26,659 nt of DNA, taken from a virus. The stretch spans positions 1 to 26,659 of the IMG/VR virus record IMGVR_UViG_3300037189_014662. The stretch is one strand, 5' to 3'. A model generated the notes under the pieces. That model saw only the letters and a program-made list of their open reading frames with translations, did no database searches and was not told the DNA's origin. A program made the position numbers and the translations under genes. How positions within the stretch are numbered: position 1 is the first letter of the stretch; the number at the start of each line of letters is the position of its first letter. Of this stretch, positions 6,206 to 21,181 are shown piece by piece.

Positions 6206-6547
6206 GTGAGCCTAGCCGCCACAAAGATCACAAAGACAATCGTAAAGGTTGTCATAGAGGAACCAACAAAGGTTCTGGACGACACCAACGTAGTGGAACT
6301 TATTGTTGCACTCGCTGATGCCAAAGCTGCTATCAAGGCTTTGAAAGAAAAGCAGTCAGAAATTGACTCTGCTATTCGCGCACTAATGGGCGATGCCACC
6401 ATTGGAACTGTTGCTGGTGTAAAGCGCGTTGAGATCCTTGATCGCACTCGCGCCGGAATCGACAGCGACATGTTGAAGAAGGCTTTCCCTGAAGCTGCAG
6501 AAGCGTGTGCAACTGAAACTGCATACACGCAACTTCAAGCAAAGTAA
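6206..6547 (+). CDS. Coiled-coil phage protein, possible recombination accessory
   Basis: 113 residues, GTG start. Residues 25-60 (VVELIVALADAKAAIKALKEKQSEIDSAI) form a helix with heptad-like spacing. The C-terminal part has 'GVKRVEILDRTRAGIDSDMLKKAFPEAAEAC' then YTQLQAK. The 'R-x-G-(I/V)-D-x-x-x-L-K-x-x-x-P-E' tail recalls the ends of phage proteins associated with YqaJ-type recombination nucleases, but no nuclease is in the window and the resemblance is from memory. It may be a small DNA-metabolism accessory. Confidence 0.5.
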   Translation: MSLAATKITKTIVKVVIEEPTKVLDDTNVVELIVALADAKAAIKALKEKQSEIDSAIRALMGDATIGTVAGVKRVEILDRTRAGIDSDMLKKAFPEAAEACATETAYTQLQAK

Positions 6548-6560
6548 TACCAATGTCTGG

Positions 6561-6590
6561 TTGGGGCAGGGACTTCCCTCCTTGCCCCAA
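6561..6590 (+). terminator. Hairpin ending the 6206 gene, abutting the next promoter
   Basis: Perfect 8-bp stem TTGGGGCA / TGCCCCAA with an inner GGG / CCC pair. Only TTT follows before TTGACA of the next promoter begins at 6592, so it is a weak terminator or an insulating hairpin. Confidence 0.6.
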
Positions 6591-6591
6591 T

Positions 6592-6620
6592 TTGACAACA
6601 CTTTAAAAGTAGTGTACCTT
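6592..6620 (+). promoter_or_regulatory. Promoter of the MoxR operon
   Basis: TTGACA-17-TACCTT without TGTCAG. The leader contains AATGTAAGACAAAATGACAC (6624 onward), nearly repeated in front of the VWA gene at 8279-8298. Confidence 0.65.
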
Positions 6621-6668
6621 TAAGAATGTAAGACAAAATGACACAACGAAAAGGAGAAACACCCAGCC

Positions 6669-7154
6669 ATGTATCCAACCGGATTCATTACAGACCCTGA
6701 TAAAAAAGTGCAGGGATCAGCTCTATACGTAGAGATGAAAAGCAAAGTAAGAGATGATGCGTTTTACCAATTCTTTATTACACCAGATGGTGTTAATGAA
6801 GAAGGTAATTTCGTTTATGCAAAAGTATTCAAGCGCAGAGTGACAAGTGACTCGCCTAAAAAACAATGGCGCATTGCTAGTTTAAGACAAGAGCTTATTG
6901 TGGATTTGCCGGAGTACGCTGACATTGAATCAGTGAAAGACAGCCACAACACTAAGCGCTTCGATCCTATTGAAGCAACGTTGCACAGACTAATGAGTCA
7001 ATACACATTAGTAGGCAAACCATTCTTTGTAGAAGTATCAAAGAAGGATTTGTCAGACGTTGGTATCCATAAGACACCAATCAAAGTTGTCTATCGAATT
7101 GGGCAGACTCGCAAAGCACTTGGCTTTGCCGAGATGTTTGAAGAAGCTAAGTAA
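6669..7154 (+). CDS. Unknown protein preceding the MoxR ATPase
   Basis: 161 residues, ATG after AAAGGAG with a spacer of about 12 bases. It is a mixed alpha/beta sequence with an early Tyr/Phe-rich strand region (GSALYVEMKSKVRDD, YQFFITPDG) and a C-terminal VKVVYRIGQTRKALGFAEMF. No catalytic motif is visible. It is the first gene of a unit with the MoxR ATPase ten bases downstream, and its promoter shares leader sequence with the VWA gene, so a role with the ATPase (substrate, adaptor or inhibitor) is plausible but not shown. Confidence 0.6.
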   Translation: MYPTGFITDPDKKVQGSALYVEMKSKVRDDAFYQFFITPDGVNEEGNFVYAKVFKRRVTSDSPKKQWRIASLRQELIVDLPEYADIESVKDSHNTKRFDPIEATLHRLMSQYTLVGKPFFVEVSKKDLSDVGIHKTPIKVVYRIGQTRKALGFAEMFEEAK

Positions 7155-7163
7155 GGGATAAAA

Positions 7164-8198
7164 ATGAATAAACATCTTTTAGAAAAATACAACGAACTAG
7201 ATCCACAAATTCTAGATTCGCTTAACGAATTTATTCGTCAAGCCACAGATGAAACAGCTTCTATGCGTGTCAACGCACAGGTGCTACCACAGGGTCGCTA
7301 CACAGAACGCGCACCTCGAGGAGCAAAGGTTGCTAAGATTCCGGCTGTGATTCCTACTGGACCTGTATTCGCCGAGGAAGATACAATCTTTACTCGACCT
7401 AATGGCGACAAGTATCACGCGAGAGCTTGGGGCGAGCATCAAGATGTTGCCACTCTTCGCAAGGCGCGTGAAGCAACAGCACTTGTTCAGTCAGGAACTC
7501 CTGGCTCGCCAATGTTCGCGTTGCTTTATGGCGCACCGGGAACTGGTAAGACTGCATTAGTCGAAGCAGCTTTTACAGATGTCTACACAGTCATGGGAAC
7601 TGGCGACACCGAAGTTTCCGACTTCATTGGTGGCTACATCCAAACTCCTGCTGGTGGCTTCGAGTGGATTGATGGTCCACTTATCAGAGCAGCTGAAGAA
7701 GGCGCAGTCTTGTTCATTGACGAAATTGGTTTGATTGATCCTAAGGTTCTCTCAATCGTGTATGGCGCAATGGATGGTCGCAAGGAAATTGTTGTGACTG
7801 CTAACCCAGAGCGCGGTGCAGTAGCAATTAAAGAAGGCTTCTATGTTGCTTCTGCTACTAACCCAAATGCACCGGGTGTTCGACTTTCCGAAGCACTTCT
7901 ATCTCGTTTCGCAATTCAAGCAGAGATGGCAACTGACTGGGGACTGGCTCGCACCTTAGGTGTACCAACCACAATGGTTACTGTCGCTCAAAACTTGGAC
8001 AAGAAACAAGCATCAGGTGAAGTTTCGTGGGCACCACAAATGCGCGAACTCCTAGCCTTCCGGGACATTGCAAATGTCTTTGGTAACTCGTTCGCAATAG
8101 CAAACCTTCTCGCCGCCTCACCAGAGATGGATCGTCCAGTAGTTTCGGATGTTCTCTCTCGAGTGTTTGGCGCGGAGTGCAAGCCAGCAAGAATCTAA
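7164..8198 (+). CDS. MoxR-type AAA+ ATPase
   Basis: 344 residues. Walker A GAPGTGKT at 123-130, Walker B VLFIDEIG with D186 E187, a sensor-1 Asn in ASATNPN (233) and an Arg-finger candidate in SEALLSRF (R248) are all present, in the order expected for MoxR/RavA/CbbQ ATPases. The N-terminal 90 residues are not part of the AAA+ core. MoxR ATPases form hexamers that remodel proteins together with a VWA-domain partner carrying a MIDAS site, and exactly such a gene follows at 8314. Upstream is a 161-residue unknown. The ATG lies after AAGGGAT. The pair is the largest non-structural block in the window. Confidence 0.9.
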   Translation: MNKHLLEKYNELDPQILDSLNEFIRQATDETASMRVNAQVLPQGRYTERAPRGAKVAKIPAVIPTGPVFAEEDTIFTRPNGDKYHARAWGEHQDVATLRKAREATALVQSGTPGSPMFALLYGAPGTGKTALVEAAFTDVYTVMGTGDTEVSDFIGGYIQTPAGGFEWIDGPLIRAAEEGAVLFIDEIGLIDPKVLSIVYGAMDGRKEIVVTANPERGAVAIKEGFYVASATNPNAPGVRLSEALLSRFAIQAEMATDWGLARTLGVPTTMVTVAQNLDKKQASGEVSWAPQMRELLAFRDIANVFGNSFAIANLLAASPEMDRPVVSDVLSRVFGAECKPARI

Positions 8199-8254
8199 TT
8201 CTTGCTCGGGGTGGGGAGTCTGTATTGGGTGTTCAGACTCTCCACTTTCCCCCG
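8186..8254 (+). promoter_or_regulatory. Two hairpins between the MoxR and VWA genes
   Basis: The first is a perfect 9-bp stem AGCAAGAAT / ATTCTTGCT (8186-8206) that includes the MoxR stop codon in its arm/loop. The second is a long GC-rich hairpin, core GAGTCTG / CAGACTC extended by GGG/TCC and CGGGG/CCCCG (8207-8254). There is little U-run, so attenuation or partial termination is likelier than full termination. Confidence 0.6.
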
Positions 8255-8256
8255 AT

Positions 8257-8281
8257 TTGACAAGTATGATACTCTTATAAT
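8257..8281 (+). promoter_or_regulatory. Probable promoter of the VWA gene
   Basis: TTGACA (8257-8262) and consensus TATAAT (8276-8281), but only 13 bases apart, so the -10 box may work with another -35 or with an activator. The downstream leader AATGTAAGACCAAATGACAC (8279-8298) nearly repeats that of the 6592 promoter. Confidence 0.5.
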
Positions 8282-8313
8282 GTAAGACCAAATGACACAA
8301 CAAAGGACAAAAA

Positions 8314-10074
8314 ATGACACACTTTAATCCAGAAGACAAAGAGAGTGGCGCAAGCCACCCAGCGTGGTTACGCGTTGGAGCTGACGTTGGAACGTTAGTA
8401 AATTTAATTGCTCGTAGAAATGATTTAGTTGGCTTGGCCGGCCCGAACGCTGGCTCTGGCTCACCTGCTTGTTTCAAGCCAGCAATCGCAGAAGTAGAAG
8501 TAAACACAGACATTGCTTTCGGCGTTGGCGTAACTCCGGAGATGGTTGGCGACCTTTGCCTACGCGAAACTGAATACGAGTTTCCAAAAGCAATAGGTGC
8601 AATCGCACACGAAGCTTTTCACGCACGGTTCTCACAGTGGAGTCTTGCGGATGCTCAAGCAGAACTAAAAGAAGATGAATACACAGCGTTGGTACTTCTC
8701 GAAGAGTCGCGCATTGAAGCACAAGGCATACTTGCCGAACCTCGCTACCGAGTGTTCCTACGTTCTAGCGCATTAGAGATTGCTCTCGCGGACATAGAAA
8801 ACTTTGAGGGTAGTTCCGTACAGCAACTAGCTCAACTCGTTGGACTGGTTCACGGTCGGGTTATCGCTGGCGTGCTGGAAATGGATGAAGTCGAAGAAGT
8901 TTTAGATTTAGTTGAGTCCGGTCTAGGAATTGATGTTGTAGAAAAGCTCTCGACAATCCTGCGCAAGTTTCAAGCGCATGACAATCATTCAAACATAAGT
9001 GATCTCTATCCCCTTGCTGTCGAGTGGGTAAAAATCCTTCGCGAACTTGCGGAAGAGCGAGGCGAGATTCCAACTGAAAATCAAATGAAAATGATGCGCG
9101 AGATTGTGCAAAAACTTTCCGAGGCTAATGATGGCGTGGGGGTAAAAAACTATACCGACCTCGAGGATCAAAGAGAGTCAGAAGATTGGAAAGCTGAGGT
9201 CAATGACCGAGCAGAAAAGTCTAAAGAGGTTCGCGAACACGAAAAGATTGCAAGTGAAGTGTTCGGGCGTGGCACAGGGCCAGGCAGTGCAGGTACCCGT
9301 AGTTCTTTAATCGAGCATCGTAAGCCAACCGGTGAGGAACGGTCAGCTGCCGTTTTGATTGCACGGCTACTCGAGAAAGCAAAGTACCGTGAGCGCGACA
9401 TAACGGAAGTGGCGAGCATACTTCCTCCCGGTCGGCTTCGTACAAAAGCTCTGGTGCAACAGGCAGCTCTCCGCGACAAAGGTATTCACAAACAGGTCGA
9501 GGCGTTCCGCAAAAACAAGCGGACTCATACCGAGGATCCAACACTTACGGTCGGCGTGATGGTGGACATCTCTGGCTCTATGAATAGCGCGATGCGACCG
9601 ATGGCGACAACGGCGTGGGTTATGTCAGAAGCGGTTAGGCGAGTGCAAGGTAAATGCGCGATGGTTTACTACGGCTCGGATGTATTCTCTACTCTCAAGG
9701 TCGGTCAGCACTTAGACGAGGTAGCGGTCTACTCTGCCCCAGACGGTACTGAAAAGTTTGACAAGGCGTTCAAGGCTCTAAACGGTTCGCTAAACCTGCT
9801 TGACGGTTCCGGCGCACGGCTACTGGTCGTAGTGTCAGACGGCGAGTATACGCACGACGAAGCTCGGGCAGCTCGTAAGTGGGTGTCGCAGTGTGAAACG
9901 GCTGGCGTGGCGGTATTATGGTTACCGTTCGATAGTGGCAGATCAGCACAAGCCTTGCTTCGTGAAGCGTCCGTCGGTATCGTTCCCGGAACTATGGATC
10001 CTGCTAAAACGGCAAGTGAAATCGGTTCTATGGCAGCAAAGCTTCTAACCAAAATCGGTAAGCGAAATGCCTAG
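8314..10074 (+). CDS. VWA-domain protein with HExxH metallopeptidase-like region (MoxR partner)
   Basis: 586 residues, ATG after AAAGGA. Residues 99-103 are HEAFH, a zinc HExxH motif, followed about 27 residues later by LLEESRIEAQG (E130-E135), which supplies candidate third ligands. This arrangement is like the CobT/DUF2201-type 'metallopeptidase plus VWA' proteins. The middle (about 245-400) is charged and helical. The C-terminal VWA domain starts with MVDISGSM, giving the MIDAS D418-x-S420-x-S422, and contains a later VVVSDGEYT strand. With the MoxR ATPase upstream it should form a MoxR-VWA remodelling complex; whether the HExxH is an active protease is unknown. The VWA half looks richer in G+C and CG dinucleotides than the N-terminal half. 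Confidence 0.85.
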   Translation: MTHFNPEDKESGASHPAWLRVGADVGTLVNLIARRNDLVGLAGPNAGSGSPACFKPAIAEVEVNTDIAFGVGVTPEMVGDLCLRETEYEFPKAIGAIAHEAFHARFSQWSLADAQAELKEDEYTALVLLEESRIEAQGILAEPRYRVFLRSSALEIALADIENFEGSSVQQLAQLVGLVHGRVIAGVLEMDEVEEVLDLVESGLGIDVVEKLSTILRKFQAHDNHSNISDLYPLAVEWVKILRELAEERGEIPTENQMKMMREIVQKLSEANDGVGVKNYTDLEDQRESEDWKAEVNDRAEKSKEVREHEKIASEVFGRGTGPGSAGTRSSLIEHRKPTGEERSAAVLIARLLEKAKYRERDITEVASILPPGRLRTKALVQQAALRDKGIHKQVEAFRKNKRTHTEDPTLTVGVMVDISGSMNSAMRPMATTAWVMSEAVRRVQGKCAMVYYGSDVFSTLKVGQHLDEVAVYSAPDGTEKFDKAFKALNGSLNLLDGSGARLLVVVSDGEYTHDEARAARKWVSQCETAGVAVLWLPFDSGRSAQALLREASVGIVPGTMDPAKTASEIGSMAAKLLTKIGKRNA

Positions 10075-10495: not shown

Positions 10496-10613
10496 GCCTA
10501 AAGTCCGAGGTAAAAATTACAGCTGAACTTTGAGGTAAAAATTTCCTTATTATTTTTTAATAGCCGGCTGCCGGATAGTTCCCGCGTCGAGGAAAATTAT
10601 TTTTGAAATGGGC
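10496..10613. repeat. Spacer with two GAGGTAAAAA motifs
   Basis: GAGGTAAAAAT occurs at 10507 and 10532, 25 bases apart, with CAGCTG between them. The 21 bases from 10505 are identical to those from 16020. GCCGGC/CCGG sites and AT-rich runs follow. No gene. Confidence 0.65.
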
Positions 10614-16463: not shown

Positions 16464-16591
16464 TGCGCGGGAGATTGAGCTGCCGAGGTAAAAAATACAA
16501 GCTGCCAGGCCAGCTGAGGCAGATAGATTGCAATTATCTTTTCCGGACCGGCCCGCGGCTAAAAACAATTAAAACTTTTTGGTAAATGTGG
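16464..16591. repeat. Spacer with GAGGTAAAAA, CAGCTG and inverted AAAAGATAATT
   Basis: GAGCTGCC, GAGGTAAAAA (16485), AAGCTGCC, CCAGCTGAGG, AATTATCTTTTCCGG (inverse of the box seen at 15250 and 16066), then CCGCGG. No gene. Confidence 0.7.
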
Positions 16592-16621
16592 TTGACAAAT
16601 GTCAGGGGTATGCTGTAACCT
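16592..16621 (+). promoter_or_regulatory. TGTCAG-class promoter with leader hairpin
   Basis: TTGACA-AA-TGTCAG, ten bases, TAACCT. The leader hairpin at 16629-16647 has a 7-bp stem TCAAGTC / GACTTGA with loop AAAGG, extendable by GTAT / ATAC. GAAGGAGA follows. Confidence 0.8.
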
Positions 16622-18864: not shown

Positions 18865-19434
18865 ATGACAACTATTGCTGCTATTCAAGGTGATGGTTGG
18901 TCAGTTGTTGGCTACGACTCTCGCCTATCCCGTGGGGATTCTGGCGGTCGCATTTACACATTACCTAAAGGCAATGGAAAAGTTGTAAAAAGGGATAGAT
19001 ACTTAATTGGCGCGGCCGGTGACTTAAGAGCAATTAACTTAGTTTCCGATGTAATCAAGCTGCCAGACCCTGGAGAACTTACCGGAGCTAAGCTGGATAA
19101 ATTTTTTACCACGGCAGTAGTTCCAACTATCCGGACTTGCTTTGAAGCTGCGGGATACGGAAAAGATGGAGCTCAGGAATCTCAACTAATAGTTTCTATA
19201 GCTGGCCAGCTCTTTGAGCTTGGTGAAGGTTATGAGTGGAGTAAAGACACAAGTGGGCTTTACGGAATTGGTAGCGGTGGAGATTACGCAATAGGATCAT
19301 TACACTCAATCGTTGAAAAGAATTGCTCTATTGAAGAAGCTAAGGACTACATTAAGACTGCACTTGCGGTTGCCATAAGTTTAGATCCATCTTCAGGTGG
19401 GCCTATCAACATAGTTACACAGGAAAATTTTTAA
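18865..19434 (+). CDS. Proteasome beta / HslV-like N-terminal nucleophile hydrolase
   Basis: 189 residues. After removal of Met, Thr2 becomes the N-terminal residue in TTIAAIQGDG, as in HslV/proteasome beta subunits. Counting Thr2 as 1, an Asp falls at 17 (GYDSR), as in HslV. The Lys expected at 33 is probably one of K34/K38 in a loop with a small insertion. Residues 134-145 (GIGSGGDYAIGSL) match the conserved GSGG segment, and helices follow. It should be a threonine-type peptidase or a relative that has kept the fold. No ATPase of the HslU/ARC type is adjacent; the only AAA+ protein in the window is the MoxR one. ATG three bases after the previous stop. Confidence 0.75.
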   Translation: MTTIAAIQGDGWSVVGYDSRLSRGDSGGRIYTLPKGNGKVVKRDRYLIGAAGDLRAINLVSDVIKLPDPGELTGAKLDKFFTTAVVPTIRTCFEAAGYGKDGAQESQLIVSIAGQLFELGEGYEWSKDTSGLYGIGSGGDYAIGSLHSIVEKNCSIEEAKDYIKTALAVAISLDPSSGGPINIVTQENF

Positions 19435-20590: not shown

Positions 20591-21181
20591 ATGACAAAAA
20601 ACACAAATACGAAAACTAAACAAACAACTGGCGGGATTGAAGCTCCTGACTACTCAGACTTCATTGACGGTATGCCTCTATGGAGTAACGTTCTTCACGG
20701 GCTCTGGGTAGGCGGAACAGATGACAACGACACCCTAGGCGATCACCACGCTTGGAGTGGTAGACAAGCCTTTATTACGCCTGAGATGTTTGACACGGTA
20801 GTGACTATGTACCAATACGCCAATCCAGTTGATTGGTTAGTAAAGGAATACCGCTACTGTATCTACGACTCAGACGTAAACCACTTTGACTGGGCTGAAC
20901 TATTTGCTACGGCTAAATTCGCTCACACCGAGTGGCAGAATGGGAAGCGTGTGCTAATCCGTTGCCAAGCAGGGCTCAATCGTTCCGGACTTGTTACGGC
21001 TCTTGTGCTAATCCGTGAGGGTTTTTCACCTGAAGAAGCGATTGCCTTACTCAGAGAGAAGCGAAGTTCTATGGCCTTATTCAATAAGCAGTTCGTTCAG
21101 TTCCTTAAAACGATTGACGTTGAGATGTGGCGCGGAGATGCCTTTGTAGATACCAGCGTGTCGAGTGTTGACATAGACTAA
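20591..21181 (+). CDS. Dual-specificity / tyrosine phosphatase-like protein
   Basis: 196 residues. The P-loop VLIRCQAGLNRSGLVTAL gives C125-x5-R131 and a following Ser-Gly, the cysteine-phosphatase signature CxxGxxRS. The residue before Cys is Arg rather than the usual His. Acidic residues in IYDSDVNHFDW (D93, D95) are candidates for the general acid. The N-terminal 90 residues contain VLHGLWVGG, the usual opening 'I-x-x-x-L-(Y/W)-(V/L)-G' of DSP domains. It would remove phosphate from host or phage proteins or from nucleotides. The promoter of the next gene lies in its 3' end. Confidence 0.82.
   Translation: MTKNTNTKTKQTTGGIEAPDYSDFIDGMPLWSNVLHGLWVGGTDDNDTLGDHHAWSGRQAFITPEMFDTVVTMYQYANPVDWLVKEYRYCIYDSDVNHFDWAELFATAKFAHTEWQNGKRVLIRCQAGLNRSGLVTALVLIREGFSPEEAIALLREKRSSMALFNKQFVQFLKTIDVEMWRGDAFVDTSVSSVDID

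Follow-up and report, generated by a model that had tools for sequence, protein, structure and literature searches.

The window analysed here, a 26,659-nucleotide (26.7-kb) freshwater phage sequence (IMG/VR virus record IMGVR_UViG_3300037189_014662), carries a cassette of three genes that encode a 161-residue accessory protein, a 344-residue AAA+ ATPase and a 586-residue protein joining a metallopeptidase-like N-terminal region to a von Willebrand factor A (VWA) domain. The cassette is real and strongly selected, and its core AAA+/VWA pair is of an already known kind; what is new is the obligate third gene, the existence of versions on plasmids and in an integrative and conjugative element (ICE)-like locus that bear nucleic-acid modules (WGR or winged helix), and our finding on host CobN. 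We lean towards a mobile-element remodelling machine, driven by ATP, gripping its target through a metal ion-dependent adhesion site (MIDAS) and probably equipped with a metallopeptidase domain. Its likely task is to reshape a protein complex on behalf of mobile DNA, rather than to make vitamin B12 or to serve virion building alone.

Scanning IMG/VR with the VWA protein returned 76 loci from 78 pattern matches, which reduced to 63 distinct loci, window included, once identical VWA proteins were dropped. The ATPase and VWA genes lie together in all 63, and the gene for the 161-residue protein is directly upstream of the ATPase gene in 61; the contigs of the other two (L052 and L067) start inside the ATPase. 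The next commonest neighbour family occurs at 52 of the 63 loci, at offsets scattered from -4.9 to +7.2 kb, so that the trio stays fixed as its surroundings reshuffle. Median gaps across 56 loci are 18 bases between the 161-residue gene and the ATPase gene and 130 bases between the ATPase and VWA genes; in the window they are 9 bases and 115 bases, the latter containing a hairpin. Homologues thus co-occur in other phages, and the objection that the earlier note had raised against itself, that they might not, falls away.

Named phages extend this picture. Actinomycetia phage DSL-LC01, whose genome was assembled from a lake metagenome according to the part of PMC10611076 available, has the same three-gene order; Gordonia phages have the order ATPase, unrelated gene, VWA; Microbacterium phages have a homologue of the 161-residue protein upstream of the ATPase (hhalign E 6.5e-9 for Pumpernickel gp226 and 1.7e-7 for A3Wally gp242); and cyanophages have, near CobS, a ‘peptidase’ with HEVGH, [LV]ED.RIE and DWSGS motifs. 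The gene next after the ATPase gene in the Microbacterium phages encodes a protein of 729-786 residues (L011 5878-9503, L012 5914-9255), and in A3Wally a gene annotated as rIIB-like also follows.

The ATPase is a complete enzyme by its motifs: Walker A (GAPGTGKT at 123), Walker B (VLFIDE at 182), ATNPN at 231 and LLSRF at 245 are all intact. Its top Pfam match is AAA_5 (E 3.9e-19), it matches phrog_16448 (1.4e-56), and its profile matches midasin, NorQ and CbbQ in the PDB. Against the classical MoxR model, AAA_3, it scores 24.8 bits, under the cut-off of 27, which puts it with NorQ, CbbQ and CobS within the wide ‘MoxR’ group. The full MoxR-type AAA+ ATPase described in the earlier note is therefore MoxR in the broad sense, and with intact AAA_5/AAA_3-group motifs and a VWA partner bearing a MIDAS, the two proteins constitute a broad MoxR-type AAA+/VWA pair.

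The 586-residue protein combines, as that note had claimed, an intact MIDAS at residues 418-422 with an HEAFH motif at residues 99-103, and both are invariant in 69 full-length distinct VWA proteins (61 from IMG/VR or the window and 8 from named phages), as is D509. Downstream of HExxH (69/69), E130 is conserved in 68 of the 69, being D in L010, giving the HExxH-plus-acidic-ligand sequence signature of a zincin in which E130 is the likely third metal ligand. The LEExRxE motif sits on a predicted helix (120-141), and a HExxH helix paired with a LEExRxE helix is the arrangement expected of a gluzincin-type site. E100 is conserved beyond the needs of a structural metal site, since it never varies among the 69. 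These motifs make the N-terminal domain a probable, presumably metal-binding, metallopeptidase. Between it and the MIDAS, residues 331-408 have a mean identity of 57%, against 37% for residues 255-330, hold a conserved PPGRL and align to NorD ahead of the NorD VWA core; by analogy with NorQD (PMC13036017, in the part available) this segment is a candidate ‘finger’.

An AlphaFold2 model of the single chain (mean predicted local distance difference test score, pLDDT, 85.9; predicted template-modelling score, pTM, 0.58) found as its top Foldseek matches the NorD VWA chains of NorQ-NorD complexes (E 1.4e-7), and VIA-align matched it to the Rea1 MIDAS (Z 17.4, root-mean-square deviation (rmsd) 3.0, 200 aligned) and to NorD (Z 14.4, rmsd 6.9, 218 aligned). 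The VWA profile had no direct match among PDB sequences. In BFVD, full-length matches were to proteins of Gordonia phages GMA2 and Sixama, Brevibacterium phage Cantare, Haloarcula viruses and Thermus phage P74-26, the matches to phage and archaeal virus proteins having low TM-scores; Acidianus two-tailed virus ORF892 matched weakly (E 3.8e-6).

The 161-residue protein is the fastest-evolving of the three, with a mean column identity of 31%, where the ATPase has 60% and the VWA protein 57%. Its AlphaFold2 model (mean pLDDT 85.7, pTM 0.80) gave no significant fold match, the best among the matches listed being Foldseek E 0.17 and VIA Z 5.4; we give no weight to the lack of other fold families in the VIA lists for this model and for the VWA model. 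WGR chains of PARP2 and PARP3 are among the top 13 rows (Z 3.9-4.3, rmsd 3.1-4.0, 76-86 aligned), all rows being below Z 8 and the best one belonging to another fold; PF05406 (WGR) is not among the families matched by 43 members. That the protein might itself be a WGR domain, as its slot in the cassette and the weak structural rows had hinted, found no support in sequence comparison. The family is basic on average (median isoelectric point 9.35, 72 proteins), which fits nucleic-acid binding and proves nothing. Neither the long Gordonia ATPases, in which it might have been fused, nor the small gene between the Gordonia ATPase and VWA genes, nor the 139-residue gene ahead of cyanophage CobS matched the 161-residue protein. 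Standalone small WGR open reading frames (ORFs) occur in five IMG/VR records and DSL-LC01 (for example W01:43428-43601, three places in G011, and G015:75261-75455), none at the 161-residue gene; in G011 and in G015 one of them precedes the cassette by no more than about 2 kb.

Beyond phages, the pair is found on plasmids and in chromosomes. Relatives occur in 3 of 296 Actinomycetota genomes sampled, namely the Aquiluna metagenome-assembled genome (MAG) that we used as centre and two high-GC genomes, and VWA homologues in 25 plasmid records, all actinobacterial and 14 of them from Rhodococcus. At the ICE-like locus L110, in one of the two high-GC genomes, the pair follows genes for a TraG/TrwB-like coupling protein and a Replic_Relax protein (2.4e-47), and the ATPase has at its N terminus a winged-helix segment (MarR_2, 1.4e-5), which recurs weakly in L111, from the other high-GC genome (0.0092). 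We examined twelve plasmid neighbourhoods (L112-L119 and L121-L124), in ten of which an annotated ATPase gene adjoins the VWA gene; the ATPase is truncated in L112, L115 has no annotation, and in L121-L124 the ATPase gene beside the VWA gene is divergent. The order WGR-ATPase-VWA occurs in five of the twelve (L113, L114, L116, L117 and L118), the L118 WGR gene being annotated as hypothetical and missed by PF05406 yet matching that of L113 at 48%, and in one more, L119, the WGR domain is fused to the ATPase (PF05406 match). Of 13 non-phage VWA proteins checked for HExxH, 11 have it intact (L110-L114, L116-L119, L121 and L124), and in a tree of 31 VWA proteins the nine plasmid or chromosome rows stand apart on one side of a branch (99/98). 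No paper among the matches listed by our literature search joins a WGR domain with MoxR and VWA, and on the basis of that search the link is unreported. On four Streptomyces plasmids (L113, L116, L118 and L119) a gene of 210-224 residues follows the VWA gene, and a MXAN_6230/SCO0854 RING-family gene is nearby on three of them.

How might such a machine work? Gene linkage, intact motifs, the VWA fold with its likeness to NorD and the spread over phages, plasmids and an ICE-like locus are observations, to which we add by inference a ring, a finger, metal binding, cutting and an adaptor. The AAA+ protein would assemble as a ring, whose pore the pre-VWA finger of the 586-residue protein would enter, while the MIDAS would grip an acidic residue of the target. 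ATP hydrolysis would then turn and pull the VWA protein, deforming the target, as reported for NorQD, and the N-terminal zincin-like domain would bind metal and probably cut, or at least clamp, the loosened target. The 161-residue protein would belong with the ring and probably pick the target or site: it stands beside the ATPase even in the Microbacterium phages, whose VWA gene has relocated, and WGR or winged-helix modules take its place elsewhere. Because the ATPase is coupled to such modules in several versions from plasmids and chromosomes, we guess that the target is a nucleic-acid-bound complex of the host or of the element. A broader proposal, which we offer tentatively and consider rather doubtful, is that Actinomycetota phages, plasmids and integrative elements share one three-part machine, in which a small partner that reads nucleic acid (a WGR or winged-helix module, or the phage 161-residue protein) steers the AAA+ ring and the MIDAS arm passes a host or rival protein bound to nucleic acid on to the metallopeptidase, so that stripping and cutting rid DNA of obstacles for the element.

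Several observations weigh against a remodelling machine of this form. The VWA gene of the Microbacterium phages is about 30 kb from the ATPase gene, so linkage is not universal. The plasmid relatives L122 and L123 lack HExxH and keep DxSxS, so peptidase action is not needed everywhere. Residues 1-330 gave no solved-structure match of their own among the matches listed, which the VWA domain filled, so calling the domain a ‘zincin’ relies on its motifs and helices. The Rhodococcus, Dietzia, Corynebacterium and S. anulatus plasmids have no WGR gene annotated beside the pair. The 161-residue protein has no sequence kinship with WGR (hhalign 0.8%), so that for the phage version the link to nucleic acids is conjectural.

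Phage cobS/cobT-like pairs have been taken as vitamin B12 genes and named CobST in tailed viruses (excerpts of PMC8651126), and on that view (Liu et al. 2021) the present genes could encode CobS and CobT subunits that rely on the CobN of the host for cobalamin synthesis. The DSL-LC01 copy is annotated as a ‘cobalamin biosynthesis protein’, the ATPase matches phrog_249, ‘porphyrin biosynthesis’ (9.3e-21), and an adenosylcobalamin-dependent ribonucleotide reductase, its class assigned by TIGR02505 (above cut-off in both copies tested), is present in 17 of 25 records, common enough to keep a B12 link thinkable. However, CobN/ChlH (PF02514) was found in none of 26 records (25 phages and the Aquiluna MAG) and in none of 100 genomes of the family of that MAG, where controls were positive in 5 of 14; its absence from 100 genomes of the putative host family argues against a cobalt chelatase. 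The family surveyed is the Microbacteriaceae, of which Microbacterium is a member. The L078 phage, moreover, has the cassette together with a class Ib reductase (TIGR04170, 1199 bits) and no RTPR match, neither reductase was found in the three Gordonia phages searched, the ATPase reaches 12.3 bits against the CobS model TIGR01650 (cut-off 558.55), and CobT_C was matched in only 1 of 49 members (E 0.034). The cobalamin reading is disfavoured, and we consider a borrowed CobN highly improbable. That a large phage lineage has such a pair where no CobN was found in the host family tested, and that the pair is carried on plasmids too, warns against reading this common phage gene pair as B12 metabolism, and its function becomes testable in cultured systems (Microbacterium phages, and Streptomyces and Rhodococcus plasmids).

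A chaperone-protease for virion assembly or maturation has already been proposed in print for jumbo phages (Iyer et al. 2021, PMC7824862, in the part available) and, for a version without the peptidase, for Acidianus two-tailed virus; the phage-wide architecture, including the full-length BFVD matches among Gordonia, Brevibacterium, Haloarcula and Thermus viruses, agrees with it. We judge it unlikely here: the same protein occurs on plasmids and at an ICE-like locus, elements whose annotation gives no sign of virion production, so that building virions cannot be the sole role, and DSL-LC01 has three capsid maturation protease annotations beside its capsid gene, with the cassette placed 14 kb ahead of terL amid small genes and outside the structural block. 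A conflict module, acting in counter-defence against the host or excluding rival elements, seems to us equally unlikely. The pair is spread across phages, plasmids and chromosomal elements yet rare in genomes (3/296 Actinomycetota), the 161-residue protein diverges fastest (31% against 60% and 57%), methylase genes are near some copies, and MoxR-vWA ternary conflict systems exist (extracts of PMC7159879); but PADLOC gave generic P-loop or weak WGR matches only (best 2.7e-4), and conflict systems tend to swap effectors, whereas this VWA protein keeps one architecture (HExxH in 61/61).

The remodelling machine that we favour has several known relatives. MoxR and metallopeptidase-vWA pairs are known from group 2.2 jumbo phages, where the AAA+ protein adjoins a vWA protein with an N-terminal metallopeptidase domain (PMC7824862, in the portion available, which does not mention plasmid or ICE-like copies). 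Our cassettes, in contrast, come from freshwater, probably actinobacterial phages, with contigs of up to about 160 kb, and have an obligate third gene. The cyanophage ‘peptidase’ and CobS (PMC8651126) have related ATPases and the motifs HEVGH, LED/VEDxRIE and DWSGS in the same order; set against these and the archaeal-virus CobS/CobT genes, VWA profile similarity is weak (hhalign 2.6%, over the HExxH region only), the gene order differs and CobN is missing in the host family tested here. Thus the VWA-metallopeptidase fusion that the earlier note thought worth testing is probable by its motifs and is not new. NorQ/NorD shares the AAA+ profile kinship, a VWA protein with a pre-VWA segment and the best fold match, and the available part of PMC13036017 describes a VWA finger that enters the ring while ATP hydrolysis twists and stretches the partner. 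That part and the available part of PMC9976466, however, report no peptidase in the N-terminal domain of NorD; the target is nitric oxide reductase and there is no third gene. The E. coli cluster yehF (WGR)-yehI-yehL (MoxR)-yehM-yehP (VWA) resembles some of the plasmids in grouping WGR, MoxR-type ATPase and VWA genes, but its 378-residue VWA protein is too short for the fusion and its extra genes are others. The ternary conflict systems of Kaur et al. 2020 (PMC7159879, as far as accessible) have an AAA+/vWA core and a third conserved protein, which here is 161 residues long and of no recognised fold family; Pfam and PADLOC scans, with no search aimed at these domains, found no VMAP, iSTAND or effector domain.

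Coordinates of the cassette, its protein motifs and its flanking elements in the window
Feature	Position	Strand	Details
Hairpin 5' of the cassette, ending in AATTTGACA	6552..6600	+	-29.4 kcal/mol, z -5.86; as good in 0/200 shuffles
Leader repeat, copy 1	6626..6647	+	22-base match
161-residue accessory protein gene	6669..7154	+	ORF
AAA+ ATPase gene, 344 residues	7164..8198	+	ORF; NorQ/CbbQ/CobS side of the MoxR group
Hairpin between ATPase and VWA genes	8196..8262	+	-28.2 kcal/mol, z -3.62; as good in 1/200 shuffles
Leader repeat, copy 2	8280..8301	+	22-base match
Metallopeptidase-like/VWA protein gene, 586 residues	8314..10074	+	ORF
HEAFH, residues 99-103	8608..8622	+	predicted helix 91-106; H99, E100 and H103 in 69/69
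LEESRIE, residues 129-135	8698..8718	+	E131, R133 and E135 in 69/69; E130 in 68/69
Conserved pre-VWA segment, residues 331-408	9304..9537	+	candidate ‘finger’ for the ring pore
MIDAS DISGS, residues 418-422	9565..9579	+	D418, S420 and S422 in 69/69

The ATPase and VWA genes are the largest complete ORFs in the window, whose right end holds a portal gene (phrog_776, 1.9e-85), and within this fragment the cassette may fairly be called the largest non-structural block. The near-identical leaders described ahead of the two units are real: 22 bases with one difference, present twice where 100 shuffles give an expectation of 0. They are retained only in the near-identical relatives L013, L014 and L088; at other loci the shared sequence is no longer than 8-17 bases, commonly of TTGACA type, or is lacking. 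We therefore rejected the repeat as a conserved regulatory element. Each leader is preceded by a hairpin that stands out from shuffled sequence on RNA folding, whereas the ‘two transcription units’ of the earlier note are unproven, since a promoter scan of the window reported no consensus promoter at either copy; tRNA and Rfam searches gave no matches. Of that note's overall picture, then, the MoxR-VWA kind of pair, its probable metallopeptidase fusion and its co-occurrence in phages stand, and the leader loses its special status.

An HslV/proteasome-like peptidase gene lies at 18865-19434 of the window (phrog_1040, 4.3e-23; Pfam Proteasome, 1.8e-6). We rejected it as an obligate partner because only 19 of 30 records have it: it is present in 17 of 20 IMG/VR records, DSL-LC01 and Pumpernickel, and absent from A3Wally, Cece, Zooman, three Gordonia phages and two cyanophages. 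Two contigs have it in two copies. Just before the cassette, 6206-6547 encodes a small protein that aligns with a RecE-like exonuclease family (phrog_434, 7.8e-12) in the C-terminal part of the latter, with relatives at 52 of the 63 loci in moving positions. The window also has a holin gene (524-919) and a dual-specificity phosphatase-like gene (20591-21181; Pfam DSPc, 2.9e-10). A near-palindromic TTGACAAATGTCAG-like stretch recurs over promoter -35 sites (5103, 10614, 11288, 12120 and 16571-16613, for example), followed at several genes by TATTAT-type -10 boxes, and may be the operator of a phage regulator. A further element, GAGGTAAAAA, is repeated at 1964, 2185, 10505, 12739, 13042, 16020, 16483, 18351, 20135, 21827 and other positions, its copies at 10505 and 16020 being identical over 21 bases.

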